From NCBI GenBank assembly GCA_947624815.1, contig CANQME010000019.1:1-39287 (forward strand): 39,287 nucleotides of DNA, in the 5' to 3' direction. The notes under the pieces are model-generated. The model saw only the letters and a list, made by a program, of their open reading frames with translations. It had not been told where the DNA came from and ran no database searches. The position numbers were made by a program, and so were the translations under genes. Numbering within the stretch: position 1 is the first letter of the stretch; each line of letters starts with the position of its first letter. Positions 7,801 to 36,607 of the stretch are shown piece by piece. The stretch is from an uncultured Lachnospiraceae bacterium (GTDB lineage Bacteria > Bacillota > Clostridia > Lachnospirales > Lachnospiraceae).

Positions 7801-10177
7801 AAAAATCCATAGAATTTTCGCCTGTAATTCCTGCCGCTTTCGCAGCTCTATACCCATCAATTATTTCGTTTACTCCACCAGCACCCTTTTTTCCATGTAC
7901 TTGAGTGTTTTTTTCACCTTTAGCTTCATTATCATAAAGTGCAGCACCATCTGTTGCTACTAAAGACATTTCTCCATGGCAACATCCAGCGATACCGCCT
8001 CCAAATCCATAAGCCGTATTATCTGTAATCGTAGCATTGATTAACGTCGCTATGCCACCATTGTTGATGTATAGTCCACCACCGCCCAGATCTGTTTGAG
8101 AATTACATGTGTTATTCTGAATCGTGCCGCCAGAAATAGTTGCGATGCCCCAGACAAAAATTCCACCGCCCTCACCGGCAAATTTGTCCTTGCCTAAATC
8201 ATCGGTACTATTGAATTCAACACTACCACCCGCCATAGTAAAATTACTATTACCGGTCTTTATGTATGCTGTATATGGTTTATCGTTCTTATCTGTTTTC
8301 TGTTCAGTCCTCCACTGAATACCCACCATGATGCCGCCGCCCCGATGAGCAGTATTCCCAGAAATGGTTCCCTTTATCAGATTGAATGTTCCTTCCTCGA
8401 CATAGACGCCGCCACCAACACGGAATTTATGATCGCCCCTTGGTTCCATCTCTTCGTGCATTATTTCCGTTCCAGTACCACCGGTGACAGTAATATTACC
8501 ATTCATCGTGACATTAGCGTTGCCAGTAATAAATATAACACTGGTATTTCTACCAGTAGCATCAATTGTACCATTGCCCTCAATGGTTACAGTGCCACCA
8601 TCTATAACAATGTTTCCTTTCCATACTCCGGCATTAATTGTTTCATCCAAAATCAGAGTACCGCTTTCATTAGTAAGGGTCAGCAAACCCTCCTTGCAAG
8701 GTCTTGCCGTATCGCTGCCACTGGGTTTGAACGATAATGCCGTTTCATCCGCATCAATCAACTTCGGCCCCACATACTTCACGCACACGACCCAAGTCAG
8801 CACGGTTCCATGCTCCAGGGTTTTCTTCAGGCCCTTCTCAGGCGCTTCGGGATCGTCGTCCGCGGGTGCCTTCATGGTTGCGTTGCCGCTTGTAGCAGGT
8901 GCCGGGAGCGTCTCGAGCTCGTCTGTATCATCCGGGTCCGCCTCATCCTCAGGATCATCCTGCTGAGCCTTGGTCTCCGATGCTTTGCCGGACTCCGCCT
9001 CGGTCTCCTTAACCGCTTCGGTGCTTTCCTCTGCTGCTGTCAGCTTATCCTCCGGGATCTCAATACGGGCAAGACCTGCCAGGGGCACCTCTCCTCCCAG
9101 GATCAGCTCAATGCCGTTGCCGGAAGCTTCGCTTTCGGTTTCTTCCGTTTCAGGCGCAACAGTGCTGGCCTCCGTGTTGTCGGACGCCTCGCTCTCTTCT
9201 GCGGTCTCCTTGCTCTCGTTTTCGGTCTCTTTGCTTTCCGTTTCTTCGTTCTCGGCCTCCTCGCCGTTCACGGCCTCCGTCTTGCCGGAGGTTTCATCAT
9301 TTTCAGAGTTTTCCGCGGTAGCCTCGGTCTGATCCTTACCGGTCTCGGTCTCCATCTCTTCGGAGGTCTCGCTGCTTTCAGCGTCTTCTTCCGGGTTATC
9401 AGCCTGCTCAGGATCAGATTCCGTCTCTGCCTTGTCGGCGGTTTCAACGCTTTCCTTGCTCTCTCCGACAGTTCCTGTCTGTCCGACAACTTCATTTACG
9501 TCCTTGATGATCTCAGGAGCTGTGGACCAGAATTCTTCTTCCGTCGCGAAATCAGCATCTGCAGGCGTTGCAAGTCCTGCCTCGCCCTTCGCAGATACGA
9601 CAAGATCCTCACCCTCATAGGTGAACGTCACATTGACGATACCCTCGTCCTTGACCAGAGCGGTGCCGTCCGGGTAAACCTCCATGACGTCATCGTTGTC
9701 GCCTTCCCAGGTTCCGGGAAGGTCCATATCCAGCTTGCCGTACTCCTCAAGGTATTTTGGGGACAACAAAAGAGCCTGGCCCAGCGTATTGTCGGTCTCC
9801 TTGCCGTCGTACATATACTGGAGCCATTTGCCGGTCCATGCTATCCCGGATTCCTCGTCCTCGGCGTCCTTATCTTCCACTTCCGCGTTCTTGGTCTCCT
9901 CGCCGTCGGTTTCTTCCTCTACCGGCTCAGGCCAGATATCGACATGGAAATCGTACTCCTGCTCGTCTTCTCCGTCTTCGCTCTCTCCGACCCCCATCTG
10001 ATCCAGCATTTCCATCTGGTCGTCCGAACCATCGTCCCCGCCCATTATGATATTGAGCGCATACACCGTCTGTACATTGGCGGCGATGTTCGAAAACACC
10101 AGAACGAATGCAAGCAAACCGGCAAGAACACGCGATTTTCTCTTCGTCATTCTTAACATCTTCATCCTCTCCTTCAT
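1850..10177 (-). CDS. Giant cell-wall-anchored surface protein with beta-helix and Spy0128/FctA isopeptide repeats
   Basis: This 2775-residue protein begins with a signal peptide (basic start, hydrophobic LAGLLAFVLVF, probable cleavage after VYA near residue 40). Then come an acidic region rich in Glu, Thr and Ser (about 45-480), a Gly-rich right-handed beta-helix (about 510-900, repeated GGGI and ISGNT turns), a diverged pilin-like domain (about 890-1045) and ten tandem ~145-residue Spy0128/FctA-type domains (about 1045-2495). Each of the ten keeps an early Lys, the Glu in the F-x-I-x-E strand and a terminal Asn (F-x-N-x-Y), the triad that forms intramolecular isopeptide bonds in this family. 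A Cna-B-like/DUF7601-type domain, PEETTS repeats, APMTG, a hydrophobic segment and a charged tail end it. The start at 10177 has CAGGAGGAG about 6-8 bases upstream. Likely role: a long protease-resistant adhesin or stalk. No sortase gene lies in the window. Confidence 0.93.
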   Translation of the reverse strand: MKERMKMLRMTKRKSRVLAGLLAFVLVFSNIAANVQTVYALNIIMGGDDGSDDQMEMLDQMGVGESEDGEDEQEYDFHVDIWPEPVEEETDGEETKNAEVEDKDAEDEESGIAWTGKWLQYMYDGKETDNTLGQALLLSPKYLEEYGKLDMDLPGTWEGDNDDVMEVYPDGTALVKDEGIVNVTFTYEGEDLVVSAKGEAGLATPADADFATEEEFWSTAPEIIKDVNEVVGQTGTVGESKESVETADKAETESDPEQADNPEEDAESSETSEEMETETGKDQTEATAENSENDETSGKTEAVNGEEAENEETESKETENESKETAEESEASDNTEASTVAPETEETESEASGNGIELILGGEVPLAGLARIEIPEDKLTAAEESTEAVKETEAESGKASETKAQQDDPEDEADPDDTDELETLPAPATSGNATMKAPADDDPEAPEKGLKKTLEHGTVLTWVVCVKYVGPKLIDADETALSFKPSGSDTARPCKEGLLTLTNESGTLILDETINAGVWKGNIVIDGGTVTIEGNGTIDATGRNTSVIFITGNANVTMNGNITVTGGTGTEIMHEEMEPRGDHKFRVGGGVYVEEGTFNLIKGTISGNTAHRGGGIMVGIQWRTEQKTDKNDKPYTAYIKTGNSNFTMAGGSVEFNSTDDLGKDKFAGEGGGIFVWGIATISGGTIQNNTCNSQTDLGGGGLYINNGGIATLINATITDNTAYGFGGGIAGCCHGEMSLVATDGAALYDNEAKGEKNTQVHGKKGAGGVNEIIDGYRAAKAAGITGENSMDFYTAGSCIISNYMAGGGSAQYTVKTKAENRKIGDTEVLNYEKTNVALTAAPSQDSKNKVPVGVMISGNTSTVHGGGIGCNGGLYFGSSENSEVVIDKLNLTLSGNKTMNGIAPAANAYTFELLYRDKKTVAATAKNGADGIITFTFNEYQKISQYLNEDKESITFYLREAIPASGADIIYDKTLYRVDVKLRNDSNTETVTLKHTTNNNGEDSLGFKEITVTYTTNSYSAENITITKIAGRYGNDLNPEETVEGQSFAFANYAPVKYQPKATKTVKGNSDKYSAKDYTFEISQTGTPEGVDYILPDPVEKTLSISDLGDTNSKEVLFDEMEFTKEGTYTFSIKEIKGSSLNVEYDNAVWTLTVTVSHKQDDPGKLTENHTYTKTVGEETQTNPDAAVFTNKYTEPTFALPRAFKRIELKNVDELAEKKEFTFTMVLDETNNPPTGGVSMEGSDTPFESLTGSVTGKGEISFGNKWVQFNQPGTYTFKITEDKKGYHGYTFDEKVGLWTVVVDEKAAGTKLEVKSATYAVEKATSSDVTDGVVFVNEYKAGDVILPFAVKKEVFGNAPKDVEAKFNFELSPAEEYADDAVVTSGLHQVELTYLNGKLSGETGFGSVTFGKAGTYEFVMKEVQGTIPGYSYDDGIWYITVVVTDGENGTLKVASVRGQRRIGEAISGAFDYTDKDVDKLNPLSITFTNRYQADITTYVPKVEKAFTEDSNQRPNRDMRFDFTLTQDLDNSDGVAVLADNAGIARDSLSTYVDREGTATFGELQFTKAGTYVFVISEDAPEEADRVPGVTYSNAVWTLKIVVKDQDGKLVKTSVTYTKTEDEKEVDKLTGEDQIPTFENEYHVTPTTYQPKATKQVTGEVVPGRKYFQFTLKEDEKNPEGVKWNEHVKNGVDSIGAYGLPDYKISEGFFYPVTFEEAGTYRFIIEEENTGAPGYTYDSSSWTLTVEVVDNNSKLEVASAVYEKDGQPVTFQDGAIVAAQFVNEYKPAPTTYAPEVMKLISGESLPPEDRIYTFTLEPGFWYPNGVLTDSGVVIPDPATATVTGVGRGKFAPIEFTKAGTYNFKIKEVDEGGSMGYLYDDTTWNVEVTVVDINGQLAVSNVAYTKQAGTKTQNVGPENSMDPMYDTNHVLFASFYNEYHVIPTETQLHVTKYVTGSVRPEANTATFNFRMALIDSTARNGAVLPEKQTVSVTGSGEPGKLGEVDFDPIKFTKPGTYIFEIDEMTGFEAETGNQLPGYTYDSSTWKVVVEVADQNGTLVVESKKYNHLENGEAVDSADVPAEEGARFVNDYDVESVKYAPKVNKEFAREAAARPTEEEFTFKLEAADNYGDNITFSEEATAKKVTVTGAGIASFADITFNEAGTYEFTIREEDENKPGYKYDTAAWKLTVEVIDKGNQLLVNTTSYTQVVEKNPKSSGEMAIFTNGYEQEPTSYEPRVSKTFTGENRPKEKEFTFRIVENGYAPPAYALSLTGGLEMPENPTVTVTGENRVKFDEIKFTEPGTYKFLISEDMGETPGYTYDKAVWDLEVVIEDTEGQLQVVSHRYTKADGEATTSAEDEATFTNDYEVTATEYAPWVKKTIVGNPLEEEQFNFTLESGEGNDTEGFEFAEGDSGRHVSVNGAGTGSFGGITFKKAGTYTFKVKETSSNSPFWVDDDRTWTLTVVVEDEDGHLVVKSHSYERDGEDSVTSNTWAEFENEYHGPGDLSISKTVSGNRGERTRAFNFTVTFTNLKGEPLAGTYEYEGESIVEGVEAPADGTMTGGVLEITLRHGQKITIHNLPAGTRYSVTEEEANLDDYRTTVNGRTSDSAEGTISEKGTAVVEYENYKEQPEETTSPEETTSPEETTAPEETTSPEESTAPEESTAPEETTSPGRPTGGTTPGRPTGNTTPNRPGLSIPDNSVPQAPGIPDIVTISDDPTPLGSLSNLENIEDGDVPLAFLAPMTGDDRPIGATALFGLVALGMMGAFGILGLKKDEEED
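2177..2302 (-). repeat. 18-bp tandem repeat encoding PEETTS units
   Basis: Seven consecutive 18-base units encode PEE[T/S]T[S/A], forming the Pro/Thr/Glu-rich stalk just before the sortase-type anchor of the giant surface protein. The units differ at synonymous and Ser/Ala positions. Such spacers cross the cell wall and can vary in copy number. Confidence 0.85.
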
Positions 10178-12977: not shown

Positions 12978-13808
12978 CTACGCGTAGCTGTGGATTCCCG
13001 GAATAAATGTGTTCACTCCGATATAGGTGAACAGCACGCAGATAAATCCGATCACCGCGAACCACGCGGCCCGGCGGCCGCGCCAGCCTTTGTTCAGCCG
13101 GAGGTGAAGATAGAGGGCGTAAATGATCCAAGTAATCAGCGACCAGGTCTCCTTCGGATCCCAGGACCAGTAGCTGCCCCAGGCGCGCTCGGCCCAGATG
13201 GCCCCAGTGATAATGACGAAGGTCAGGAACAGGAAGCCCAGCGACACGGCGCGGTAGCTGATGATATCCAGCCGGTCGTAGTCCGGAATGTTCTTCTTCC
13301 AGAAATCATGGTTTTCGCGTCCCTGCTTCAGGAGGAACATCGACGATACGGCGAACGACACGCCGAACGCTCCGTAGGAAATGATGGCGGTGGACACATG
13401 GATGCCCAGCCAGTTGCTTCTGAGAGCCGGCATCAGTTCCCGCACCTCCCGGCTCTGCATCGCGGCGTAGCCGATCAGAAGGAAGATCACCGGCGTCACG
13501 AAGGTTCCCAGCGCCTGGAAATGATACTTCTTCACGAATACCAGAAAACACAGGCAGATGCCCCAGGCGAAGCTGGTCGCGAACTCGTACTGGTTGGTCA
13601 GCGGGAGCCGTCCCGCTCCGATGCCGCGCACGAGAAGGGCCGCCGTGTGCAGCACGAACGCCACGGTGATAACCCATCCGGCGATCCGGGCCGCCTTCTC
13701 ATTCTTCATGGCGAAGAAGATGAAATACAGCACCATGGACGCCAGATAGAGGACCATGACTGCTGTGAATAATGTGTTTTCAACTGCGAGAAACTGGCTG
13801 CTATTCAT
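12978..13808 (-). CDS. ccsA: System II cytochrome c maturation protein CcsA/ResC
   Basis: This 276-residue polytopic membrane protein has about eight hydrophobic segments and the diagnostic Trp-rich heme-handling (WWD) motif WGSYWSWDPKETWSLITW near residues 205-222. With ResB it exports heme and ligates it to CXXCH motifs of apocytochromes on the outer face of the membrane. It lies 35 bases after resB, and the whole apparent operon runs from 17147 to here. Its natural client in the window is the five-heme NrfA. The start ATG at 13808 follows a GGAG-type site. The last codons sit in a perfect 16-base palindrome (12975-12990), and a GC hairpin without a T-run follows, so termination is unclear. 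Confidence 0.93.
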   Translation of the reverse strand: MNSSQFLAVENTLFTAVMVLYLASMVLYFIFFAMKNEKAARIAGWVITVAFVLHTAALLVRGIGAGRLPLTNQYEFATSFAWGICLCFLVFVKKYHFQALGTFVTPVIFLLIGYAAMQSREVRELMPALRSNWLGIHVSTAIISYGAFGVSFAVSSMFLLKQGRENHDFWKKNIPDYDRLDIISYRAVSLGFLFLTFVIITGAIWAERAWGSYWSWDPKETWSLITWIIYALYLHLRLNKGWRGRRAAWFAVIGFICVLFTYIGVNTFIPGIHSYA

Positions 13809-13843
13809 CGTATACTCTCCTTACTCCTGCTTTCTGACTGTTC

Positions 13844-15514
13844 TCAGATATTTCCATCCGTATTCTCATTCTTCTGTGCCGGAACCGCTTTTACCGAATA
13901 CGGATCCGCCTCGCCCGCGACGGGCGCCTTCTGCGCGCCCGGGCCGTCTCCGCCGCTTTTACGGGTGTTTTCTCCGTATTTCGCAAGCTCTTCCATAAAA
14001 TACGCTCCCGCCTTCCTGCTTCTGCCGGCCAGCGCCCAGGTCCCGTCGGCACGCTGTACCGCCCAGACTTCCTCCGGCGGCAGATAGAAGGCCAGAACCA
14101 GCGAGATCATGACCAGGAGCCCGCCTACGGCGGCCACCGGCGTAAACGGGTCGCGCTTGATCTGGATCAGCGTATACTGCTGCGGATCCGTGAACCGGAT
14201 CCCGTAGTCCTCCACGGTGATCATCTCATCCTCGGTCAGCACGTTCATGCCCAGGATCTGATCGTGATAGTAAAGCGTGTAGAGATAGCCGGGATTGTTA
14301 AGCTCCGGCGACGCCGTCATGGGCATACCGTCGGCGCCGCGGACATAATCCGGATAGAAGGCGTTCAGCACCACGGCCAGTCCTTCCATATCCTCGACCA
14401 GAGCGTACTCCCCGGCGCAGATCACTCCCTCCTGCAGAAGCTCGCGGTCCTTATAGATCTGCACATTCGCCGCCCAGCCAGTGGAATTCTGATAAAATTT
14501 CATCCCGTGAAGGGTCAGGGGATGGTTGACTGAAACGACGCCCGTTCCTTCCTCCGCAGCTGCCCCGCTCGCCCCGGCGCGCGACACCGTCAAAGCCGAC
14601 TTATACTGCTCTACCGTATCGTCTTCCCGGAGTTTCACCTGGAAATCGTCGATCCGCAGCTCGTAACCGGTATCCCCGATCGGTTTTACCTGACCGGGAA
14701 CGCCGTAGACCGAATACTGAACCTGGAACATCTGTCCCAGTCCGAAGCCCGCGATCACCACCAGCATTCCCAGATGGCACAGCCATGAGCCCCAGATGCC
14801 GAACCGGTGCCGCACTGCATAACGGGTTGAGCAGCCTGCGGGGGCAGGGCCCGGAACCTGCGCAGAAACCGGCGCCGGAGCAGGCACCTGGCCGGACGCT
14901 TCGGACGCCTTGCCTCCGCCTGCGCCCGTATTCTCCGGGTCTTCTGCCACCACTACTGCCGCACCCGTCTCCTGCGGCGGCTGCGCAGCGGGTACGACCC
15001 CCTGCGTCATGCTATGGAGGCCCAACTGCCGAAGAGGTTCCTCCGGGTCTTCTGCCACCACTACCGCCGCACCCGTCTCCTGCGGCGGCTGCGTAGCGGA
15101 TACGACGCCCCGCGTCACATTATGGAAGCCCAGCTGCCGGAACAGCTCCTCCGGGTCTTCCGCCGTCACCGCAGCCGGGACGCCGTCCCAGCCGGCGATC
15201 CGGCCCGCCGCGGTAAAGCCTTCCTTCATCCGCCTCATCAGCACCGGGAAGCGCAGCACGCTGCATAACAGCAGGTTAAGGCACAGAAACAGGGTCAGCC
15301 CCACGAACCACCAGCAGTGGAACACGTCGTCCAGCCGGAACAGCAGAATAGCCCCCGCCAGGGATTCCGGATAATTCGCCGTATAGTAAGCCGCCGTCTG
15401 TCCCTGTGGGACGAGGCTGCCCAGCGTACAGGCCAGCGCCAGTATCACCAGCAGGATGACCGCGCATTTCATCGAGCGCAGGAACCGCCCCGCCTTCTTG
15501 AATCGTTCCATCAT
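13844..15514 (-). CDS. resB: System II cytochrome c maturation protein ResB (Ccs1)
   Basis: This is the membrane partner of CcsA in heme attachment. Two transmembrane segments come first (about residues 15-35 and 60-80), then a long variable loop, a third segment (WGSWLCHLGMLVVIAGFGLG), an extracytoplasmic domain with the family's VNHPLTLHGMKFYQNSTGW block, and a last segment before an ~80-residue hydrophilic tail. The loop between segments 2 and 3, normally short, is expanded by a 36-residue repeat (AEDPEE..LRQLG..) and a Pro/Ala-rich stretch, making the protein about 556 residues. I prefer the ATG at 15514 (or 15511), which follows GGAGGAG directly; a longer frame begins at 15541 but lies upstream of that site. 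It sits between nrfA and ccsA. Confidence 0.9.
   Translation of the reverse strand: MMERFKKAGRFLRSMKCAVILLVILALACTLGSLVPQGQTAAYYTANYPESLAGAILLFRLDDVFHCWWFVGLTLFLCLNLLLCSVLRFPVLMRRMKEGFTAAGRIAGWDGVPAAVTAEDPEELFRQLGFHNVTRGVVSATQPPQETGAAVVVAEDPEEPLRQLGLHSMTQGVVPAAQPPQETGAAVVVAEDPENTGAGGGKASEASGQVPAPAPVSAQVPGPAPAGCSTRYAVRHRFGIWGSWLCHLGMLVVIAGFGLGQMFQVQYSVYGVPGQVKPIGDTGYELRIDDFQVKLREDDTVEQYKSALTVSRAGASGAAAEEGTGVVSVNHPLTLHGMKFYQNSTGWAANVQIYKDRELLQEGVICAGEYALVEDMEGLAVVLNAFYPDYVRGADGMPMTASPELNNPGYLYTLYYHDQILGMNVLTEDEMITVEDYGIRFTDPQQYTLIQIKRDPFTPVAAVGGLLVMISLVLAFYLPPEEVWAVQRADGTWALAGRSRKAGAYFMEELAKYGENTRKSGGDGPGAQKAPVAGEADPYSVKAVPAQKNENTDGNI
14933..15175 (-). repeat. 108-bp tandem repeat inside resB
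   Basis: Units begin at 14933, 15041 and 15149, exactly 108 bases apart (36 codons). Two are complete and the third is partial. Each starts with CTCCGGGTCTTC on the plus strand and encodes a variant of AEDPEE...RQLG...QPPQETGAAVVV. The repeat is in frame and falls in the loop between transmembrane segments 2 and 3. Confidence 0.92.
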
Positions 15515-15544
15515 AATCTCCTCCGCCGTACCGCGATACACAAC

Positions 15545-15573
15545 GAGGGCCGGCAGTCACATCTCCGGCCCTC
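15545..15573 (-). other. Hairpin between nrfA and resB
   Basis: A perfect 9-bp GC-rich stem (GAGGGCCGG and CCGGCCCTC) has an 11-base loop, in the 103-base spacer between nrfA and resB. No T-run follows on the minus strand, so it is more likely an mRNA-stabilising or processing element than a terminator. It could set a higher nrfA-to-resB expression ratio. Confidence 0.6.
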
Positions 15574-15617
15574 ACATTCCTTCCTGTTCATGCTGTGTGT
15601 TCCCTACGCGGGTCTTA

Positions 15618-16895
15618 TCAAAGCCCCAGAAGTCCCATGGCCTCCGCCGTCAGTTCCTCGCACTTGTCCAGGCAGCTTCTGGACAGGGTCGAATTATGGG
15701 CGCCCTCGCTGTTCTCCACATAGCAGAAATCCCAGTACCACTGGGCGCTGCGGTACAGCGACCGGATCTCGTTCAGCTGATCCTCGCTCATCTCTCCCGC
15801 AGCCACCTCGGCCGCCAGGGCTTCCTTCAACTCAACCAGCTTCTGTCCCAGCTCCGTCTCGCGGCCCGTGATCTCCGTCTGGATCTCCTTCACCTTCGCC
15901 GCCAGATCGGTCTCGCCGTGGCACTGCACGCAGGTATCCAGGATCGCCTGGTTGGCCAGCGGGCTCTCCCACTTATGGCTGGTATAGGTCGTCCCCTTCT
16001 CGGTCACGACCGCCATATGGCAGTCCGCACAGCTCATTCCGAAGCCCACGTGGACGCTGCCCGCGCCGAGATAGGTCTCAAACTCCGGATGCTGGGCCTT
16101 CAGCATGCCCGTTCCGGTGCTCTCCTGCGTCCAGTCGGAGAATCCCATCTCGTCGTAATATGCCAGGATCGCTTCCGGGTCCATGGCCGCCACACTGGTG
16201 TAGGGCATCATGGTCTCCTTCGTATCCGGCGCAAAGTAATACTCAATATGACACTGTCCGCAGGACAGCGTGGACGGATCGATGGTATCCATCTCACTGC
16301 CCAGGGCGTTCTTCACATAAGAGTGGGTCACGACCAGCTGGCCGCCGTTGCCGGCCTGGTTCTCATGGCAGTTGTAGCAGCTGATGTTCTCCACCATCTG
16401 CGCATGGGTCTCATTAAAATCGTACATATAGGCTTCCACGCCCATATCGTTCACCAGCTTGGTGTAATCCGGCGTCTTGCAGGTCAGGCAGTTGGCCAGG
16501 GGATGGGGACGTTCCGTCTCCGCCACATCCTCCAGCGTATACGTATGGGCAATCGCGCTCGTGTAGTCCTTCGCGAATCCGAAGCCCTCGTAGAGGGAAA
16601 CGATGTGCGGATTCTCCTCCGTATAGGCGATCCGGTAATTGTTATCGTCGTTCGCCCGGTAAGAGGCCACGATCTCCGGATAAATGCTCTCCCATTCGTC
16701 TGCGGAGATCACGCCGTTGGCCCGCGACGGCGCCGGCGCGTCCACCTGCTTGTAAACGATCACGCCCGCCGGAGCCGGAATGATAGCGGTCAGCGCCTTC
16801 TGAAGAGGCGCGGACACCGCGATCACTGCCACAGCCGCTGCCGCCATGACTCCAAGTCCTATGAAATTCTTCCTGTTCGAGTCTGTCTTTCGCAT
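15618..16895 (-). CDS. nrfA: Ammonia-forming cytochrome c nitrite reductase NrfA
   Basis: This 425-residue enzyme catalyses the six-electron reduction of nitrite to ammonium outside the membrane. It shows the diagnostic five heme motifs: one CXXCK (CLTCK, about residue 137, giving the Lys-ligated catalytic heme) and four CXXCH (CYNCH ~172, CGQCH ~211, CADCH ~289, CVQCH ~322). KAQHPEFE and SHKWESPL correspond to conserved segments around the active site and calcium site. One N-terminal hydrophobic segment (FIGLGVMAAAAVAVIAV) is an uncleaved anchor or signal. I start at the ATG at 16895, behind GGAGGGG; the longer frame from 16967 has no such site. It is co-directional with resB and ccsA, which would mature its hemes. 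No NrfH or NrfBCD is visible. Confidence 0.96.
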   Translation of the reverse strand: MRKTDSNRKNFIGLGVMAAAAVAVIAVSAPLQKALTAIIPAPAGVIVYKQVDAPAPSRANGVISADEWESIYPEIVASYRANDDNNYRIAYTEENPHIVSLYEGFGFAKDYTSAIAHTYTLEDVAETERPHPLANCLTCKTPDYTKLVNDMGVEAYMYDFNETHAQMVENISCYNCHENQAGNGGQLVVTHSYVKNALGSEMDTIDPSTLSCGQCHIEYYFAPDTKETMMPYTSVAAMDPEAILAYYDEMGFSDWTQESTGTGMLKAQHPEFETYLGAGSVHVGFGMSCADCHMAVVTEKGTTYTSHKWESPLANQAILDTCVQCHGETDLAAKVKEIQTEITGRETELGQKLVELKEALAAEVAAGEMSEDQLNEIRSLYRSAQWYWDFCYVENSEGAHNSTLSRSCLDKCEELTAEAMGLLGL

Positions 16896-16970
16896 AACAT
16901 ACCCCTCCGAAGGTAGTTTTCCTACTGTCATTCTACACGACGCCGGAGGTAAAGTCAATGTATACACGCA

Positions 16971-28471: not shown

Positions 28472-29179
28472 ATGAAATACAGAAAAGAACTCTATGGAGC
28501 GGCCGTCTGTTTCCTGCTGGCGCTTCTGTGCTTTGCCGCCGGACGGCGGTCGGATCAGGAGGCTCTGGCCGAACGCATCGCCCCGCATCTCCTGCGCTTT
28601 CATATCCTGGCCGACAGCAATTCCGCCGCGGACCAGGCGATGAAGCTGGAGGTAAGGGATCTGCTGCTCGGCCTGCTGGCGGAAGGCACGGCGGACGCAG
28701 ACGGTCTCTCCGAAAAGGAGGCGATCTGCCGCTACGTCACGGAGCACCGCCGGGAGCTGGAGAAGGCGGCCGAAGACTATATGGCCGCCAGGGGATACCA
28801 GCGGGACGCGGCCGTCTGCATTACGAAGTGCCGGTTTCCTACAAAATGCTACGGCGATATCGTGCTTCCCTGCGGAACCTACGACGCCGTGCAGGTCACG
28901 CTGGGGAAAGGGCGGGGGCGCAACTGGTGGTGCCTGCTCTATCCCAGACTCTGCTTCGTCGACGCCTCCCACGCCGCAGTGCCGGAAGAATCCAAAAATG
29001 AGCTGCAGAGTCTGGTGGGCGAAGACGATTTCGCCGCCCTGCTTATGCAGGACGGCGTAAAGATCCAGATTCGTTTCCGGCTGCTGGAGCTTCTTGCAGG
29101 GCTTTGGCAGCGCGGAGACGGAAGCCTTAACGCGGCCGCGCCGGACAGCGAATCTACTGCTCCGTTTGATCCGACATGA
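28472..29179 (+). CDS. spoIIR: Stage II sporulation protein R
   Basis: This 235-residue secreted signalling protein is made in the forespore; in Bacillus it triggers the protease SpoIIGA to activate sigma-E in the mother cell. The start region has a transmembrane signal (LYGAAVCFLLALLCFAAG), followed by the family's LLRFHILADSNSAADQAMKL block, KLEVRDLLL, and the closing YGDIVLPCGTYDAVQVTLG and NWWCLLYPRLCF motifs. I start at the ATG at 28472 behind GGGGAGG (28455-28461); the frame opens at 28421, but that codon lies within the promoter. Its last 26 bases overlap the end of the convergent TolC-like gene. It marks the organism as a spore former. Confidence 0.93.
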   Translation: MKYRKELYGAAVCFLLALLCFAAGRRSDQEALAERIAPHLLRFHILADSNSAADQAMKLEVRDLLLGLLAEGTADADGLSEKEAICRYVTEHRRELEKAAEDYMAARGYQRDAAVCITKCRFPTKCYGDIVLPCGTYDAVQVTLGKGRGRNWWCLLYPRLCFVDASHAAVPEESKNELQSLVGEDDFAALLMQDGVKIQIRFRLLELLAGLWQRGDGSLNAAAPDSESTAPFDPT

Positions 29180-30380
29180 TGATCCCGCGGACCGCCCATT
29201 CATAGTCCAGGATCGCCTGGGTCAGAGCCATGGAAGCGTTGTCCGCCGACACCTTCTGCTGAAGATAGGCCATTTTGGTCTGCAGGTACTGAAGCTGGCC
29301 GATCATGCCCAGCTCGTACTGCCGCCTGCCGCTCTCCTCGGTCAGCCTGGCCGCCTCCAGCGTCGTGAAGGATGCCTCATAGGCGGCCCGGTCGGCCAGA
29401 ACCGTCTGATAAAGCTCCTCCAGCTGGGTCTTGATCTCTTCTTTCGCTTCCTTTCGCACCTTTTCCTTCGTCGAATAGCCGGATTTGCTGCTCTTCAGCG
29501 TGTCGTCCAGCGTCTTTAAGGAATAGCTGTTGTCCAGAGCCTCGGTAATGTCGGCCGCCGGATTCATCGCGTCGATCTTCGTCAGATCCGGAGCGGGAAC
29601 CGTTCCGATCGCCGCCGAAGCGTCGTAGGTCCAGCCCGTCATCACATACAGATTCTGCCGGAGAGACAGAAGCGTGTTGTCCAGAGACAGCGTCTGGTTC
29701 TGTGCGGACAGAAGCGACTGCTGTGCGGACAGCACGTCGTTGTCGGTCGCCATGCCGACGTCCCGCTGCGTCTGGGCGGACCGGACGGCCGCCTGGGCAA
29801 GCTCCTCCGCCGCGGCGCACAGCTCGCGGGAGGAAAGGGCCTGATTATAGCCTATGAACATCTTCTGTACCGCGGCTGTCAGGGAATAAAGGGTCTGGTC
29901 CCGCATGTCGCGGGTCTCCTGATCCATGGTGTTGGCCGTCTTGTTGATCGCCTTAATCCCCTGCTCGATGCCGCGAACCCCTTCCTGCACCGTCTGATAG
30001 AGGCCCTTGGTCTGCTCGTACATCATCTGCTCCATCTGCGACTCCGAATTGGGATTCATCTGATCCAGCGTTTTCTTCAGCTCCTTCTCCGAATCCTTCA
30101 TCGTTTTCAGATCCTCGGAGGTCCGCATCCGGGAAGCCGTCTCCCTGCTGGCGTCGATCATGGGCTCGATCGATTCCAGGACCTGCCGGTAGGACGGGTT
30201 ATAATACCTGATCAGATTCTCCAGCTCGCCGTACTCCATCAGATTGTCCTGAAGGCTGGTCCAGGTCTGATCGTCCATGCCGCTCGGCCGCGTGACCGCG
30301 CATGCCGGACACACCGCGCCGCCGGCCAGAACCGCCGCCAGCACAGCTGCGCATACCGCTCTTCTTCCTGCGCTCCTCAT
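29154..30380 (-). CDS. TolC-family (outer membrane factor-like) protein, second copy
   Basis: This 408-residue secreted protein has a signal peptide (AVCAAVLAAVLAGGAVCPA) and two long helical halves with heptad-like patterns. Typical TolC/OEP blocks are present: GMATDNDVLSAQQSLLSAQNQ near the middle and YELGMIGQLQYLQTKMAYLQQ near the end. In diderms such proteins trimerise into an outer-membrane channel; here, in an apparent monoderm, the role is open (wall-spanning conduit or periplasm-like adaptor). The ATG at 30380 directly abuts the TAA of the preceding paralogue, so translation is coupled. Last gene of the efflux operon; its 3' end overlaps spoIIR by 26 bases, tail to tail. Confidence 0.85.
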   Translation of the reverse strand: MRSAGRRAVCAAVLAAVLAGGAVCPACAVTRPSGMDDQTWTSLQDNLMEYGELENLIRYYNPSYRQVLESIEPMIDASRETASRMRTSEDLKTMKDSEKELKKTLDQMNPNSESQMEQMMYEQTKGLYQTVQEGVRGIEQGIKAINKTANTMDQETRDMRDQTLYSLTAAVQKMFIGYNQALSSRELCAAAEELAQAAVRSAQTQRDVGMATDNDVLSAQQSLLSAQNQTLSLDNTLLSLRQNLYVMTGWTYDASAAIGTVPAPDLTKIDAMNPAADITEALDNSYSLKTLDDTLKSSKSGYSTKEKVRKEAKEEIKTQLEELYQTVLADRAAYEASFTTLEAARLTEESGRRQYELGMIGQLQYLQTKMAYLQQKVSADNASMALTQAILDYEWAVRGIIMSDQTEQ

Positions 30381-31577
30381 TTACCTCACTCCCTTTTTCA
30401 CCCAGTCGTAGGTCTCCATGGCCGCGAACAGCTGCAGCTTTTTGACCTCCAGATCGGACTGACACGAGACCAGGTTGGCCTCCGCCTGCAGCGTCTCCAT
30501 GGCGGTTCCCATACCGACCCTCTGCTTCGCCTGGGCGGAGGAGCAGGAACGGCTCGCCACGTCCAGATTCAGCGCGGCCTGGTCATAGGCCGCTTTCGAC
30601 GAAAGCACCGACTGATAGGCGGAGCTCAATGCAATGGCGATCTGCTGCTTATCGTTCTCGACCGCGGACGCGTGAACTGTCTGACCGCTCAGCGTCACGG
30701 AATTGTCCAGCTTTCTCTGATCCGACTTCAGCGTATAATCATTTTCACAGGCCGTCGCCAGATCCGTCTCCGGATTCATCGCCGCGATCCGGTTCAGATC
30801 CGGTTCCGGCAACGACCGGATCTCCGGCTGCGCGCCCTGCGCCCATCCCAGCATCACGATCAGGTTCTGACGTGTGGTCTCGATCTGGTTCTGGAGGCTC
30901 AGGATCTGGGCGTCCGCGTTCTGCAGGTTCTGCTGGGCCGTAAGCACGTCCGCATAGGTCGCCATGCCCACGGAGGAATTCTGCTGGCGTCTGGTATTAT
31001 CCAGGACCGCCGCCATCAGCTCCCGGTTCTTCTGCGCCGCCGTCAGCTGGCTCTGGAGCTGAAAATAGGTATTCATGGATGACTGCGCCTGCGCGGTCAG
31101 GGATTTCTCCGTCTTTTCCAGATCCCACCGCTTCGTCGTGCCGTCCTCGGCCGCGTCGATCGTATTCTGGATCTGGATCTCCCCCATGCGCGCCTGGTAC
31201 TCGGAGGTGATCATGGACAGATCGTCTTCCGAAAGGGCGGCCTGATCGTAGTAGTCCTCCACGGCCCGCTCCGCGTCGGTTACATAATCCTGCGTAGTCT
31301 TGCCGGAATCCGCCTTCTGCCAAGCCGAATAGCTCTCCACGACCGTCGCGTTGTATTCCTCGATCAGATCCCCGATCTCCTCGTACTCCAGCACGTCGTC
31401 CCGAAGCCTCGCCCATTCCTCCGCCGTGCGGGCGAATTCCGGGCTCGCGGCCCGCGCCGTTACAGTCAGCGGGCCTGCCGCCGCAGACATTCCTGCCAGA
31501 AGCACGGCAGCCGCCGCGGCTGCGCGGCGGGACGCCGCCGGCGTTCTGTATAGTCTCCCTGTTCCGTTCATTTTCAT
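30381..31577 (-). CDS. TolC-family (outer membrane factor-like) protein, first copy
   Basis: This 398-residue secreted coiled-coil protein is a paralogue of the next gene. The features are a signal peptide (AAAAAAVLLAGMSAAAGPLTVTARA), a long helical hairpin and the OEP block GMATYADVLTAQQNLQNADAQ, then VGMGTAMETLQAEANLVSCQSDL near the C-terminus. The two copies share the D-L-x-x-I-x-A-M-N-P motif between their halves (PEPDLNRIAAMNPETD here, PAPDLTKIDAMNPAAD in the other), which shows common descent. I start at the ATG at 31577 behind GGGGGAG; the longer frame from 31640 lacks a site. It follows the RND permease by 83 bases. Confidence 0.85.
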   Translation of the reverse strand: MKMNGTGRLYRTPAASRRAAAAAAVLLAGMSAAAGPLTVTARAASPEFARTAEEWARLRDDVLEYEEIGDLIEEYNATVVESYSAWQKADSGKTTQDYVTDAERAVEDYYDQAALSEDDLSMITSEYQARMGEIQIQNTIDAAEDGTTKRWDLEKTEKSLTAQAQSSMNTYFQLQSQLTAAQKNRELMAAVLDNTRRQQNSSVGMATYADVLTAQQNLQNADAQILSLQNQIETTRQNLIVMLGWAQGAQPEIRSLPEPDLNRIAAMNPETDLATACENDYTLKSDQRKLDNSVTLSGQTVHASAVENDKQQIAIALSSAYQSVLSSKAAYDQAALNLDVASRSCSSAQAKQRVGMGTAMETLQAEANLVSCQSDLEVKKLQLFAAMETYDWVKKGVR

Positions 31578-31660
31578 TCGGTTCTCCCCCTTTTTAAACG
31601 ATCGCACAGACCGCATTCCACGCCCCGGATACGGGCGCATCCGTTTTGCGGCCCGGCATT

Positions 31661-34600
31661 TTACATCTCATCGTCAAGCTCCGGCATCTGCAGTCCCTTA
31701 AGCTTCGACATCACTGAATAGTAGGCCGGCAGCATCAGAAGCGCCAGAAGCGTCGACGCCACAAGACCGCCCACGTCCACCAGCGCCAGACCCTGCAGCA
31801 GCTCGCCCGCGTCTCCGTAGGCCAGACACATGGGGATCATGGCCACCACCGTGGTCAGCGTGGTCATCAGGATGGGTCGCAGACGGGTGGTTCCCGCCTC
31901 GACCAGAGCTTCATTCAGCTCCATTCCGTCATGCCGGTACTGGTTCACCGTGTCCACGTAGAGGATGCCGTTGTTCACCGCGGTTCCCACCAGCATCATG
32001 AATCCCAGCATGGACGGCATGCTCAGCGTCACGTCCGTGATGTACAGACGCGAGAACGAGCCGATCAGACCGAAGGGAATGGTGGTCATGACCATCAGCG
32101 AGAACTTGGGCGATTCGAACTGGGCCGCCATGACCACGAACACCAGGAAGGCGGCGATCAGGATGGCCCTGAACAGGCTGTCCAGCTCCTCGTACATGGT
32201 CTCCGTGACCGTATTGGTCACGATGGACATTTCCCTGGCCATTCTGGGACGGATCACCTCACGGATCAGCTGCTCGGACACGGCGTCCATCACTCTTTCA
32301 TCCGTATTATCGATATAGTCCGTATAATCGGCGGTCAGGGTCGCCTGGTACTGCTTGTTATAACGGGTAATGCTCTGCGGGCTGTCCTCATATTCCACCT
32401 CCGCGATGTCCGTCAGGGCTACCATGGCGCCGGAGCTGGTGGGGATCAGGATGCCCTTCATCTGATCCAGCGTGTCGTACTCGTTCTCCGGATACTCCAC
32501 CATGACGCTCACATCATGGCCGTTCACCTCCAGGGTCGTGGCCTCCACGCCCTCCAGCATCATATTGATCATACCGGCCACCTGAACCGGGGAAAGTCCC
32601 TCTGCCGCGGCCTGGACCGGATCCAGCTTCACCTTCACCAGCGGCGCCGCGTTCTCAAGCGTGGAATGGACCTTGGTGACCTCCGGCCTCGCCGTCAGAT
32701 CCGCCGCCATCTCATCGGTAACGGCCTTCAGCGTATCGTAGTCCGTACTGGCCAGGATCACCTCGAAGCCCTCCGCCTCCGACATCAGGGAGCTCATCAT
32801 GCTGACCGGCTGAAGCGTGATGTTGCAGTCCGGGATCCGGCTCAGAACGGGACGCCATTTGCGGATCACCTCATCGGTGGAAAGCGTCCTGTCGTCCCGC
32901 AGATACGCTGTCAGGGATGCGCCGGAGCCGCCGCCGATGGAAGAGCTTAAGCCGCTGGCGCCGTAGGAGAGCATGTAGGTCGCCACATCCTCATCGTTCG
33001 CCACGATCTCCTCCGCCTGGCTCAGGATCTCATTGACCGCCTCCACCCGAAGGCCGGGCCGCGTCTCGATACTGACGTTCACCGCGCCTTCGTCGGCCAT
33101 GGGCATCAGCTCTCTGCGCAGTTGGAACGCCAGATATACGGAGCCGGCCAGCAATGCGACCGAGGTGAAGATGACCAGCCATTTGTGGGGCAGCAGCACT
33201 CTCATGACTCTCCGGTAACCGCCCTGCATCACCCGAAGGACGCCGGACATCGGCGCCTTCTGCCGTTCCCTCGGCCGGTACATGACATAGCACAGGGGCA
33301 CGATGGTCACGGCGGAGATCAGGGACGCCACCATACAGAAGACGATGGTAAAGCCCAAAGGCTTAAACAGCTGTCCGGACATTCCCTTCAGCATGGCCAG
33401 GGGCAGAAATACCACGCAGGTGGTCAGCGTCGAGCCGAAAATGGACTGGAACACGATGCCGCTGCCCTCCAGGGCGCCCCGGGTATATTCCCGGATGCTG
33501 TCCCCTCTGGTGGTACGGAAGCAGCTCTCCATGACCACGATGGAGTTATCCACCATCATGCCGACGCCCAGCACAAGGCTGCTCAGCGTGACGACATTTA
33601 AGGAAAATCCCATCAGGCTCATGGCGATCAGCGCCACCAGGATCGACACCGGTATGGACGTGCCCACGATCATCGACGCCTTCAGATCGCCGAAGAACAG
33701 CAGGATAATGACCATGGAGACCACCACGGCCATCGCCATGGTCTGCAGCACGGAGGTCAGGGAGTTGCGGATCATGACGCTGTTGTCGCTGACCACGATC
33801 ATCTCCAGATCCGGATCGGCGGCCGTCAAATCGGCAACCACCTCCTGCACCGCGTCGGATACCTCCACCTCGCTGTTGCTCTGATTCTTCTGGATGTTAA
33901 TGGAAATGGTCTCGCGCCCGTTGAAGCGTCCGATGCCGTTCTCCGCCTCCAGGGCCGGATAGATATTGGCCACATCGTCCAGATAGATGATGTTGCCGTT
34001 GCCGGCGGGGATGGGGATGTTCTTCAGGCTCTCCACAGTATCGTAGGGCACCTCGGCCGTCACCGACAGATTCTGCCGGCCCACGTCCGCGTCGCCCACC
34101 GGGAAGGTAAAATCGGCGCTTCCGATGACCGAGGCGATGGTGCTGATATCCAGCCGGTACTGGGACAGCTTCTCCGGAATCAGCTCCACCCGCACGTACT
34201 CGGCCCGGCCGCCGCTGATGTCCACGCTGGCTACGGAGGACAGCTTTTCGAACTCGGGGACGATCTCATTGTCCACATAATTATACAGGTTATCCTGTGT
34301 GTCGTTGTTGACAGCCAGACTCATGCTCGCGGTCTGGTTGATATCCATCTCGATGATGACCGGCTCCTGGACGTCGTCCGGGAACGTGGTCTTAAGCGCG
34401 TCCAGGATCTTCTTCAGATCGTTGTAGGCGTCGTCGATGTCGATGCCGTACTCATACTGGATCAGCACCACCGAGGAATTCTCGCTGGAAATACTCTGGC
34501 TGTTCTCCAGTCCGGACAGGGTACCGATGCTGTCCTCGATCGGACGGCTTACCAGCTCCATCACGTCGTCGGGGCTGGCGCCGGGATAGACCGTGAACAC

Positions 34601-34738
34601 GATCAGCATCGGCATGTTGATCTCGGGGATCAGCTCCAGCTTGGAGGAGAACACCGAACTCAGGCCGAATACCAGAAGGCTTAACACCACCATCAGGGTG
34701 GTGACCGGCCGTTTTAAAACGGTTCTTGTGATGTTCAT
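31661..34738 (-). CDS. RND-superfamily efflux permease (AcrB/HAE1-like)
   Basis: This 1025-residue proton-driven exporter has the usual RND plan: one transmembrane helix at the start (RPVTTLMVVLSLLVFGL), a large porter loop (YPGASPDDVMELVSRPIEDSIGTL), six helices, a second porter loop (about 560-830), and five to six more helices. In helix 4 the motif is GVGMMVDNSIVVMES, so the second acid of the usual Asp-Asp pair is Asn. In helix 10 the usual Lys site reads GTAVNNGILYVD, with Asn. That Asn-bearing form is seen in other non-AcrB RND pumps. The start overlaps the adaptor gene (ATGA) behind GGAGGAGG. The substrate is unknown. Confidence 0.95.
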   Translation of the reverse strand: MNITRTVLKRPVTTLMVVLSLLVFGLSSVFSSKLELIPEINMPMLIVFTVYPGASPDDVMELVSRPIEDSIGTLSGLENSQSISSENSSVVLIQYEYGIDIDDAYNDLKKILDALKTTFPDDVQEPVIIEMDINQTASMSLAVNNDTQDNLYNYVDNEIVPEFEKLSSVASVDISGGRAEYVRVELIPEKLSQYRLDISTIASVIGSADFTFPVGDADVGRQNLSVTAEVPYDTVESLKNIPIPAGNGNIIYLDDVANIYPALEAENGIGRFNGRETISINIQKNQSNSEVEVSDAVQEVVADLTAADPDLEMIVVSDNSVMIRNSLTSVLQTMAMAVVVSMVIILLFFGDLKASMIVGTSIPVSILVALIAMSLMGFSLNVVTLSSLVLGVGMMVDNSIVVMESCFRTTRGDSIREYTRGALEGSGIVFQSIFGSTLTTCVVFLPLAMLKGMSGQLFKPLGFTIVFCMVASLISAVTIVPLCYVMYRPRERQKAPMSGVLRVMQGGYRRVMRVLLPHKWLVIFTSVALLAGSVYLAFQLRRELMPMADEGAVNVSIETRPGLRVEAVNEILSQAEEIVANDEDVATYMLSYGASGLSSSIGGGSGASLTAYLRDDRTLSTDEVIRKWRPVLSRIPDCNITLQPVSMMSSLMSEAEGFEVILASTDYDTLKAVTDEMAADLTARPEVTKVHSTLENAAPLVKVKLDPVQAAAEGLSPVQVAGMINMMLEGVEATTLEVNGHDVSVMVEYPENEYDTLDQMKGILIPTSSGAMVALTDIAEVEYEDSPQSITRYNKQYQATLTADYTDYIDNTDERVMDAVSEQLIREVIRPRMAREMSIVTNTVTETMYEELDSLFRAILIAAFLVFVVMAAQFESPKFSLMVMTTIPFGLIGSFSRLYITDVTLSMPSMLGFMMLVGTAVNNGILYVDTVNQYRHDGMELNEALVEAGTTRLRPILMTTLTTVVAMIPMCLAYGDAGELLQGLALVDVGGLVASTLLALLMLPAYYSVMSKLKGLQMPELDDEM

Positions 34739-35802
34739 TGAACCCCCTCCTCCAGAAGCGCCGGCGCATTTTCATATAATTCCGGACTCCAGGTGGTGAT
34801 GACCTGATCGGAAGCGTCCAGGCCGGATACGATCTCGATGTTCTCGTCGTCGCTTAAGCCCGTCTCTATGGACACCTCATGGACGGTCCCGCCGTCGTAG
34901 GTATAGACGTACGGCTTGCTGTTCCGGTAATAGATCACGTCCACCGGCAGCGTCATCACGTTCTCCGCCTTATCCGCGGTCAGATAGAGCCGGACCGCAG
35001 AGCCGCTGATCAGCGCGTCTGCATTCTCAAGCGTCGCCTCGGCGTCGAACAGTCCGGTGTAGGAGCTGACCATGGAGCTGACCTCGGTAATGGTTCCGGT
35101 GTATTCGCTCCCGCTCTTCTCCACACGGATCGGTTCCCCTTCCTTCACATGATCCAGCATGGCCTCCGTCACCGAGAATGTGACCGTCTTGGTGTCGCCG
35201 CCGGAGATCACGCACAGCGGCGAGGACTGGGTAGCCATCCCGTGGACCTCCATGGTGCTGGACTCGATCTTGCCGGCAATGGTAGCCGTCACATGACTGA
35301 AGTCGATCTGATAATCATAGGCAAGCTTGGCGCTGTCGTACTGGATCTGGGCCGCCTTGACAGAGCTTTCCACCTGCTCGTAGGACTGGGCGGCGATATC
35401 TCCGGAAGCGTAGAGCACGCTCATACGCTCCAGATTGGTCTTGGCGTCATTCAGCTGGATCTCGGCGGCGTCCAGCTGGAGCTTCGCGGAATCCACCTGC
35501 TTCGTATCGATCTCACAGAGCAGCTGACCCTCCTCCACGTAATCGCCCACATTGACATAGACCGCCGTGATCTCCCCGGCGGCCATGGGGATCACATTGA
35601 CCACATCCGACGGCGACACGCTTCCGATCAGGCTGCGGAATACCTCGATATCACCCTTTTCGGGATTCATCACCTGCACCGTAGGCGGCGCTACCGTCTC
35701 CGCCTCCACCTCCGGCTCCGACATACGGGGCGCCACAAAAAATCCGAACGCGGCAGCCGCCGCCACGATTACGGCCGCCCCGATAACTGCTCCCTTGCTC
35801 AT
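34735..35802 (-). CDS. RND efflux membrane fusion (periplasmic adaptor) protein
   Basis: This 355-residue HlyD/AcrA-type adaptor has an N-terminal transmembrane anchor (VIGAAVIVAAAAAFGFFVAP), the first lipoyl-like half (GEITAVYVNVGDYVEEGQLLCEID), a helical hairpin with LDAAEIQLNDAKTNLERM and YEQVESSVKAAQIQYDSAK, the second lipoyl half (VTATIAGKIESS), then beta-barrel and membrane-proximal parts (PVDVIYYRNSKPYVYTYDGG, VSIETGLSDDENIEIVSGL). It would link the permease to the TolC-like proteins. I start at the ATG at 35802, 8 bases after GGAGG; the frame opens further up at 35835. It lies between tetR and the permease. Confidence 0.93.
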   Translation of the reverse strand: MSKGAVIGAAVIVAAAAAFGFFVAPRMSEPEVEAETVAPPTVQVMNPEKGDIEVFRSLIGSVSPSDVVNVIPMAAGEITAVYVNVGDYVEEGQLLCEIDTKQVDSAKLQLDAAEIQLNDAKTNLERMSVLYASGDIAAQSYEQVESSVKAAQIQYDSAKLAYDYQIDFSHVTATIAGKIESSTMEVHGMATQSSPLCVISGGDTKTVTFSVTEAMLDHVKEGEPIRVEKSGSEYTGTITEVSSMVSSYTGLFDAEATLENADALISGSAVRLYLTADKAENVMTLPVDVIYYRNSKPYVYTYDGGTVHEVSIETGLSDDENIEIVSGLDASDQVITTWSPELYENAPALLEEGVQ

Positions 35803-35851
35803 GATCCTATCCTCCAAAATGATTGTTTTCAACAAATTGCCGCCGAAGGCT

Positions 35852-36478
35852 TCACGCCGCGCCGGCCTCCTTCTGCCCGCGGTACGAACCGCGCCGGAGT
35901 ATCTTAAGAGCTCTCCGGTAATCCTCCCGAAGCTTTTCCTCCTGCTCCGGATGCAGGCAGAACTCCGACAGACAGCTGACCAGCACCATCGCCGTCAGCT
36001 TAAACACCTGGACAATATTCTCCTCCGACGGATCCTCGAACAGAGTCCGGTCGATCTTATCGAGAAGCAGGCATTTGACCTCCCGCTCGCAGTCCGACTG
36101 CTTCGGAAGGGAATCCATGATCGGCTCCGGGTACATGATCAGGTTCTTATGCAGGGCAAACAGGTTGTTATGCCTGCAGAAATCAATGGCCTGGTCCATC
36201 AGCATGGACATCAGGCCGAAATAATCTCCTCCGGCCTTCTCGATGCTTTCGAGACAGAACTGGTTCCACTGCTGTCTGGTTCCCCACAGGATGAAGGCCA
36301 GCAGCTCCCTTTTGTCTTCGAAATACGTATAGAAGCTGCCCCTGGAGATCCCGGCCTGCTTGATGATCTTGTTGATCGAGACCTTTTCGTAGGGCTGGGC
36401 GATGAATTCCTCCACGGCCGCCTTCCATATAACGGTCTGCTTCTCGCCGGACAGCCTCATGAAACGCTCACTTGGCAT
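35852..36478 (-). CDS. TetR/AcrR-family transcriptional regulator
   Basis: This 208-residue repressor-type protein has its HTH in residues about 25-60 (YEKVSINKIIKQAGISRGSFYTYFEDKRELL), followed by a helical ligand-binding domain with no recognisable ligand signature. It is the first gene of the efflux operon, 49 bases before the adaptor gene. The start is the ATG at 36478 behind AAAGGAGC. Two TGACA-N3-TGTCA palindromes overlap its promoter, so it probably represses the whole operon until a pump substrate is bound. Confidence 0.92.
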   Translation of the reverse strand: MPSERFMRLSGEKQTVIWKAAVEEFIAQPYEKVSINKIIKQAGISRGSFYTYFEDKRELLAFILWGTRQQWNQFCLESIEKAGGDYFGLMSMLMDQAIDFCRHNNLFALHKNLIMYPEPIMDSLPKQSDCEREVKCLLLDKIDRTLFEDPSEENIVQVFKLTAMVLVSCLSEFCLHPEQEEKLREDYRRALKILRRGSYRGQKEAGAA

Positions 36479-36562
36479 GATATATGGCTCCTTTCCGCGC
36501 GGCGGTCCGTCCCGTTCCCGGACAGAATCATCTGCCGGCGCCACGGTCCGTCAACGCAAAAG

Positions 36563-36607
36563 TGACAAGATGTCATTCATTATAATGACACCCTGTCACC
36601 CTGTCAA
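36563..36607 (-). promoter_or_regulatory. Consensus promoter with two TetR-type operators
   Basis: On the minus strand a perfect TTGACA (36607-36602), 17 bases, and a perfect TATAAT (36584-36579). Two perfect-armed palindromes of the form TGACA-N3-TGTCA lie at 36586-36598 (in the spacer) and 36563-36575 (just past the -10), centres 23 bases apart, with a third half-site in the -35. A protein bound here would exclude RNA polymerase. Confidence 0.85.

Follow-up and report, generated by a model that had tools for sequence, protein, structure and literature searches.

We examined a putative efflux operon in a 39,287-nucleotide stretch of DNA from an uncultured Lachnospiraceae bacterium (assembly GCA_947624815.1, contig CANQME010000019.1, positions 1 to 39,287), referred to here as the window. 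In its genome of 3.54 Mb and 207 contigs, which is 87.8% complete, the window makes up contig 19. On its minus strand, genes for a TetR-family regulator, an adaptor, an RND permease and two TolC-family proteins, here named OEP-A and OEP-B (outer membrane efflux protein), form a compact five-gene unit:

35852..36544, minus strand: TetR-family regulator, first gene of the operon (PF00440, E = 2e-13)
34735..35835, minus strand: periplasmic adaptor (membrane fusion protein) with an N-terminal hydrophobic anchor and an RLS-like hairpin tip (TIGR01730, E = 5e-51)
31661..34738, minus strand: RND (HAE-1-like) permease, 1025 amino acids (PF00873, E = 1e-200)
30381..31640, minus strand: OEP-A, TolC-family protein with no beta-barrel strands (PF02321, E = 6e-15); mature part about 31445-30384
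29154..30380, minus strand: OEP-B, second TolC-family protein with no beta-barrel strands (PF02321, E = 9e-15); mature part about 30290-29157

The adaptor and RND genes are joined by an ATGA overlap (34735-34738), and the TAA of OEP-A directly abuts the ATG of OEP-B (30381/30380). An earlier sequence-only reading of the window had described these five contiguous genes and both junctions, and the reading frames and profile matches confirmed them. Its operon end at 36607 was too far out, as the TetR frame starts at 36544 at the furthest. Judged by eye, translation probably begins inside the longest open reading frames, at about 36478 for TetR, about 35802 (behind GGAGG) for the adaptor and about 31577 for OEP-A.

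The adaptor scored above the TIGR01730 cut-off (173.4 vs 94.9 bits), and the permease matched PF00873 (ACR_tran) over positions 2-1020 of 1021. Because the permease fell below the curated NCBIfam cut-offs for RND subfamilies (best NF033617, 592 bits vs 1250), it is, judged by its sequence, a divergent branch. Its nearest solved chain by sequence was MdtB (9lyq, E = 2e-91). Both OEPs matched PF02321 above the curated cut-off in two stretches each, corresponding to the duplicated OEP repeat.

We then considered the fold of the two OEPs. In AlphaFold2 monomer models, neither protein showed barrel strands, and OEP-A was helical with a mean pLDDT (predicted local distance difference test) of 75.8. 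Foldseek returned TolC as the best match for the OEP-A model (E = 1.5e-7), and TolC was likewise the best match for OEP-B by both Foldseek and VIA. Searching PDB sequences with the profiles A1 and A2 gave no match at 1e-3, so kinship with TolC is drawn from Pfam and the fold. An unrelated coiled coil, which the sequence-only reading had named as a possible refutation, was ruled out by the fold searches.

The second (repeat-2) hairpin measured 73-85 residues in all 96 family rows, compared with 145-146 residues in TolC. The CusC hairpin landmark fell in another alignment column (95 by column vs 135 directly), and 17 values were checked by reading the stretches. The TolC repeat-1 length depended on the alignment (133 vs 108), and no claim was built on it. 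The second barrel hairpin of the OEPs is missing altogether, and the models show the first as helix. The tip glycines were present in 93 and 92 of the 96 OEPs. On the combined evidence of alignment and prediction, both OEPs keep the helical TolC architecture together with the glycines of the aperture tip, and the beta-hairpins that build the barrel are gone. The TolC-like identity proposed by the sequence-only reading was thus upheld, and the barrel strands that it had suggested looking for were found in neither model.

The residues through which such proteins would dock were also examined. The adaptor carries an RLS-like motif, located by its usual spacing; the RLS motif has a role in docking. 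Among 41 adaptors, the window's included, R was present in 39, L in all 41, S in 30, and either S or A in all 41; the full R, L and S set occurred in 28. The available text of PMC8277102 locates the RLS motif in the adaptor hairpin. In the permeases, alignment placed D-N in transmembrane helix 4 (TM4) of 35 of 37 RNDs of these operons and N-N in TM10 of 31 of 37, whereas MdtB has DD and KN at these sites. The window permease has D-N and N-N and in this respect differs from textbook RND pumps such as AcrB. This difference suggests that the proton path or coupling may depart from that of the textbook pump.

To place the operon in its cellular context, we searched for outer-membrane machinery. 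BamA/Omp85 and LptD, whose presence the sequence-only reading had named as a refutation, gave no match in the window's own, 87.8% complete genome; the same profiles matched 7 and 2 of 14 control genomes, respectively. Within a 150-genome sample of the family, BamA was matched in none of the 14 OEP-bearing genomes, 10 of which reach 90% completeness or more with no more than 5% contamination. Six relatives of the host are metagenome-assembled genomes of uncultured Lachnospiraceae, five of them with isolate names 'Lapin'. According to the available text of PMC4793230, secretion loci of the diderm-like kind were lacking in monoderm genomes, and the available main text of PMC5007114 contains no TolC. 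The host organism is very probably a monoderm, in line with the sequence-only reading, which had argued from spoIIR, a sortase-type anchor and a firmicute-type RNA polymerase that no outer membrane is present; spoIIR was confirmed (PF09551), and rpoB/rpoC frames and a protein with an APMTG-type anchor were found by eye. That the cell is a cryptic diderm with the OEPs seated in an outer membrane is extremely improbable. RND pumps and OEPs are typical of diderms, and the own genome is incomplete, but neither BamA nor LptD was matched there, BamA was absent from all 14 hosts and the OEPs have no barrel strands; on these grounds a cryptic outer membrane was ruled out.

We next surveyed how OEP genes are arranged across genomes. 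OEP matches (E = 1e-12 or better) were found in 37 of 397 family genomes, and 35 of these 37 carried an adjacent OEP pair; the 42 pairs accounted for 84 of the 90 matches. Of the unpaired matches, G016 and G559 each had one and G048 and G721 each had two, and seven genomes (G119, G578, G588, G604, G635, G673 and G740) had two pairs each. Across the class, 37 of 391 sampled genomes matched at E = 1e-6; most of the matching genomes from outside the family had a single, weaker match. The sequence-only reading had suspected related clusters elsewhere in the Clostridia and called for a survey of the five-gene order. This survey found tetR-adaptor-RND-OEP-OEP, in that order, in 28 of 51 OEP loci. 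Eight further loci (L035, L050, L106, L109, L114, L118, L123 and L126) had adaptor-RND-OEP-OEP with no tetR detected; L035 lies at a contig edge and the L109 adaptor is split into two frames. At L113, a tetR-like gene sits between the RND and the OEPs, and L046, L130, L133 and L134 are located at contig ends. Since the adaptor-RND-OEP-OEP order recurs across the family, it is not a product of chance.

The pair was also found with another kind of pump. At L054 (8077-14092), a MacA-like adaptor and a MacB-type ABC ATPase and permease are followed by twin OEPs, as judged by eye and by phmmer to the window adaptor, and at L132 a single OEP follows a MacAB-type pump. Judging from L054, the OEP pair seems to serve ABC pumps too.

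These counts refer to loci, not independent events, and near-copies occur among the loci (L048/L128 and L044/L134). The excluded rows were L056, L041 (same operon sequence as L036), L043 and L058 (no OEP match), L057 (a fragment), the cut second gene of L134, and the first OEPs of L110 and L111, which are in pieces and were not joined. The first gene of L046 is truncated by the contig end, yet was retained. L056 (2954-4309, in G129, 6% contamination) holds an OEP of canonical length (451 amino acids) on a contig with both Bacteroidota-like and Firmicutes-like genes by eye, and is likely a contamination or misassembly. In another clostridial family (f10), adjacent OEP pairs of 367-403 amino acids occur without a pump (L100, 7597-9926; L103, 8476-10778), possibly through an independent duplication.

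Phylogenetic analysis separated the paired genes into two types. In a careful 36-row tree, the OEP genes formed two clans of 18 (support 100/99). In a 91-row tree, a 46-row clan (SH-aLRT, the Shimodaira-Hasegawa-like approximate likelihood ratio test, 99) gave 43 of 44 pairs an A and a B member each. This larger tree was a quick one with SH-aLRT support only, and it left out L042_1, L132, L133, L054_1 and L054_2 (single or long rows). The A gene led in 33 pairs and the B gene in the other 10; the B-first pairs seem to form a single lineage in which the order was swapped, with a branch support (89) that is not strong. Gene-order labels on this tree required 3 changes, compared with a mean of ~31 after shuffling. 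As far as the alignments and trees go, paralogues of types A and B have been retained next to each other throughout the family, mostly with an adaptor and an RND permease. That they are rarely lost singly and lie adjacent is expected of two parts of one machine, although it does not prove contact. This pattern argues for OEP-A and OEP-B being two putative subunits that are not interchangeable.

The same pattern bears on whether the two proteins mix at all. OEP-A and OEP-B could each form homotrimeric ducts, serving as alternatives or for different pumps. Such sharing among pumps might explain the five pair loci without a pump and the seven genomes with two pairs, and some systems, in the family (L132) as well as in other Clostridia, have a single OEP. 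However, the adjacency (84 of 90 matches in 42 pairs) and the one-A-one-B composition of 43 of 44 pairs exceed what interchangeable or independent copies would need, and we regard separate homotrimers as on the unlikely side.

Degeneration was considered as well. The pair might be a decaying, non-functional relic of a diderm ancestor, as the loss of the barrel, the fragmented L110 and L111 loci of G588 and the divided adaptor of L109 could suggest. We consider this very improbable, because most loci consist of whole frames, the tip and docking residues are conserved, and the gene order and both clans have been kept over deep divergence. At L110 and L111, the RND gene and the first OEP are in pieces; G588 is 86% complete with 6% contamination, and either sequencing error or decay may be responsible.

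A further question was where a barrel-free duct would be seated. In the available text of PMC8809574 (Stubenrauch et al. 2022), all monoderm TolC examples had surface layer (S-layer) genes, and a seat in the S-layer, replacing the outer membrane, was proposed. In the 150 family genomes, S-layer homology (SLH) domains were found in 11 of 14 OEP-bearing genomes vs 26 of 136 others (Fisher p = 1.2e-5, kinship uncontrolled), which favors this proposal. OEP-bearing here means the 14 genomes with A3 profile matches; 13 of the 27 PF02321-matching genomes were counted as negative, namely G129, probably a contaminant, and 12 genomes in which lone matches lie in frames of 271-1680 amino acids. Against a seat in the S-layer, neither SLH nor CWB2 was matched in the window genome (87.8% complete), its genus mate G114 (98% complete) or G016, CWB2 was absent from all 14 OEP-bearing genomes, 6 of the 11 SLH-positive hosts had a single SLH match, and the association leaves kinship uncontrolled. 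Because both domains were unmatched in these three genomes, SLH or CWB2 proteins, the only two S-layer types searched, do not look like a general requirement. We judge the S-layer seat for this duct to be clearly unlikely.

TolC-type pumps in such bacteria are a general phenomenon published in 2022, so the earlier suggestion that the architecture had not been described does not stand. The available text of PMC8809574 describes tripartite operons in monoderm Firmicutes that encode TolC-like proteins, with 12 examples, one operon of which (L. gingivalis) has two TolC-like genes. Like those systems, the window has TolC-like genes in an operon with an adaptor and a pump, in a host with no BAM match. 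That text notes an omission within the beta-barrel of the C. difficile model and shows a Phyre2 model with a hydrophilic-surfaced barrel domain still drawn, whereas here neither paralogue's model has barrel strands and the two clans are paired family-wide. Unlike its examples with S-layer genes, the window genus has no SLH or CWB2 match. Four points appear to be new within the literature searched: the complete loss of the barrel in both paralogues, the two-clan pairing on a family scale, the absence of an SLH or CWB2 match from the window's genus and, at L054, the twin duct that follows a MacAB-type pump. For the two-clan pairing and the complete barrel loss, no earlier report was found in the open-access PMC literature, preprints excluded; apart from PMC8809574, no title there resembled an account of such a system.

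The operon resembles AcrAB-TolC and MexAB-OprM, which are HAE-1 RND pumps, in its RND permease, the RLS-like adaptor tip, the OEP fold with tip glycines and the TetR-type regulator, as AcrR is for AcrAB-TolC. It differs from them in lacking an outer-membrane barrel and in having two OEPs instead of one. The MdtABC system likewise keeps a duplicated subunit as a pair in one operon, but there the permease is duplicated, whereas in the window operon it is the exit duct. MdtBC is named a rare RND heterotrimer in the available text of PMC8277102.

We propose, with a probability of roughly 0.6, that these genes specify an adaptor-permease-TolC efflux pump of the RND type, adapted to a cell that lacks an outer membrane, in which an all-helical conduit caps the adaptor and permease within the cell wall. 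The RND permease would take up its substrate from the membrane or the membrane's outer face, and a ring of adaptor hairpins would dock tip-to-tip on the OEP aperture. OEP-A and OEP-B, as a mixed trimer or as two trimers with different jobs, would form a soluble all-helical exit duct that conveys the substrate from the membrane out through the cell wall. TetR probably acts as a sensor of the substrate and as the repressor of the operon; for a gut bacterium, one guess at the substrate would be a toxic amphiphile, for example a bile compound. Evidence is available for the fold, the barrel loss, the retained docking residues, the gene order and the pairing; the assembly, stoichiometry, seat and substrate are what we infer. 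The stronger proposal, to which we give somewhat less than even odds, is that a member of each clan joins in a hetero-oligomeric all-helical TolC duct that lies outside any membrane and crosses the wall for RND-pumped and sometimes MacAB-pumped substrates, and that it is built from an old duplication that the Lachnospiraceae have retained as a pair. The sequence-only reading had suggested that the TolC-like pair may form a wall-spanning or hetero-oligomeric conduit, or a soluble coiled-coil partner; the two-clan pairing has made a heteromeric conduit likelier.

Several observations weigh against these proposals. Both OEPs fell below the NCBIfam cut-offs for TolC (TIGR01844) and NodT (TIGR01845), with best scores of 40.1 and 25.6 bits vs 225.15. 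The AlphaFold2 models are monomers built from 7-row alignments, and the first 110 residues of OEP-A had low confidence (block means 49-63), so that its repeat-1 helix is less sure. In the window adaptor, R and L are kept and A replaces the S of the RLS motif. When three long rows were added to the careful tree, giving 39 rows, the support for the A/B split was only 91/66, and the L108 pair, the sole exception of the 44, lies entirely within clan A. The A and B sets were named, and the 46-row clan chosen, after the trees had been viewed. Five of the 51 loci (L039, L055, L107, L115 and L116) have an OEP pair without a nearby pump, and the single OEPs of L042 and L132 are not due to a contig end. 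The retention of A and B together can also mean that they have two separate jobs.

The surroundings of the operon were also inspected. Upstream lie a GntR gene (profile match) and an ispE-like frame, and on the other side spoIIR, on the opposite strand, is followed by ddl-, murI- and rpoB/rpoC-like frames; apart from GntR and spoIIR, these were recognized by eye. At L091 in G391, from another Lachnospiraceae genus, the operon is flanked by the same kinds of neighbors by eye, which suggests vertical inheritance at the present site. Elsewhere in the window, positions 1850-10177 (minus strand) encode a surface protein of 2775 amino acids with many repeated pilin/Cna-like modules and, near its C-terminus, the APMTG-type sorting signal, as seen by eye; this is the sortase-type anchor of the sequence-only reading. 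Frames resembling CcsA, ResB and a multihaem cytochrome c nitrite reductase, with CXXCK and CXXCH motifs by eye, lie at 12978-16967 (minus strand) and suggest possible nitrite ammonification in this gut Lachnospiraceae.

If the proposed hetero-oligomeric duct is real, it would represent an exit route for efflux that functions in the absence of an outer membrane and depends on two dedicated paralogues. TolC's helical part would then be useful on its own, perhaps for carriage through a thick wall. OEP genes occur in about one-tenth of the sampled genomes of a major gut family (37/397), in which drug and bile tolerance may be of importance.

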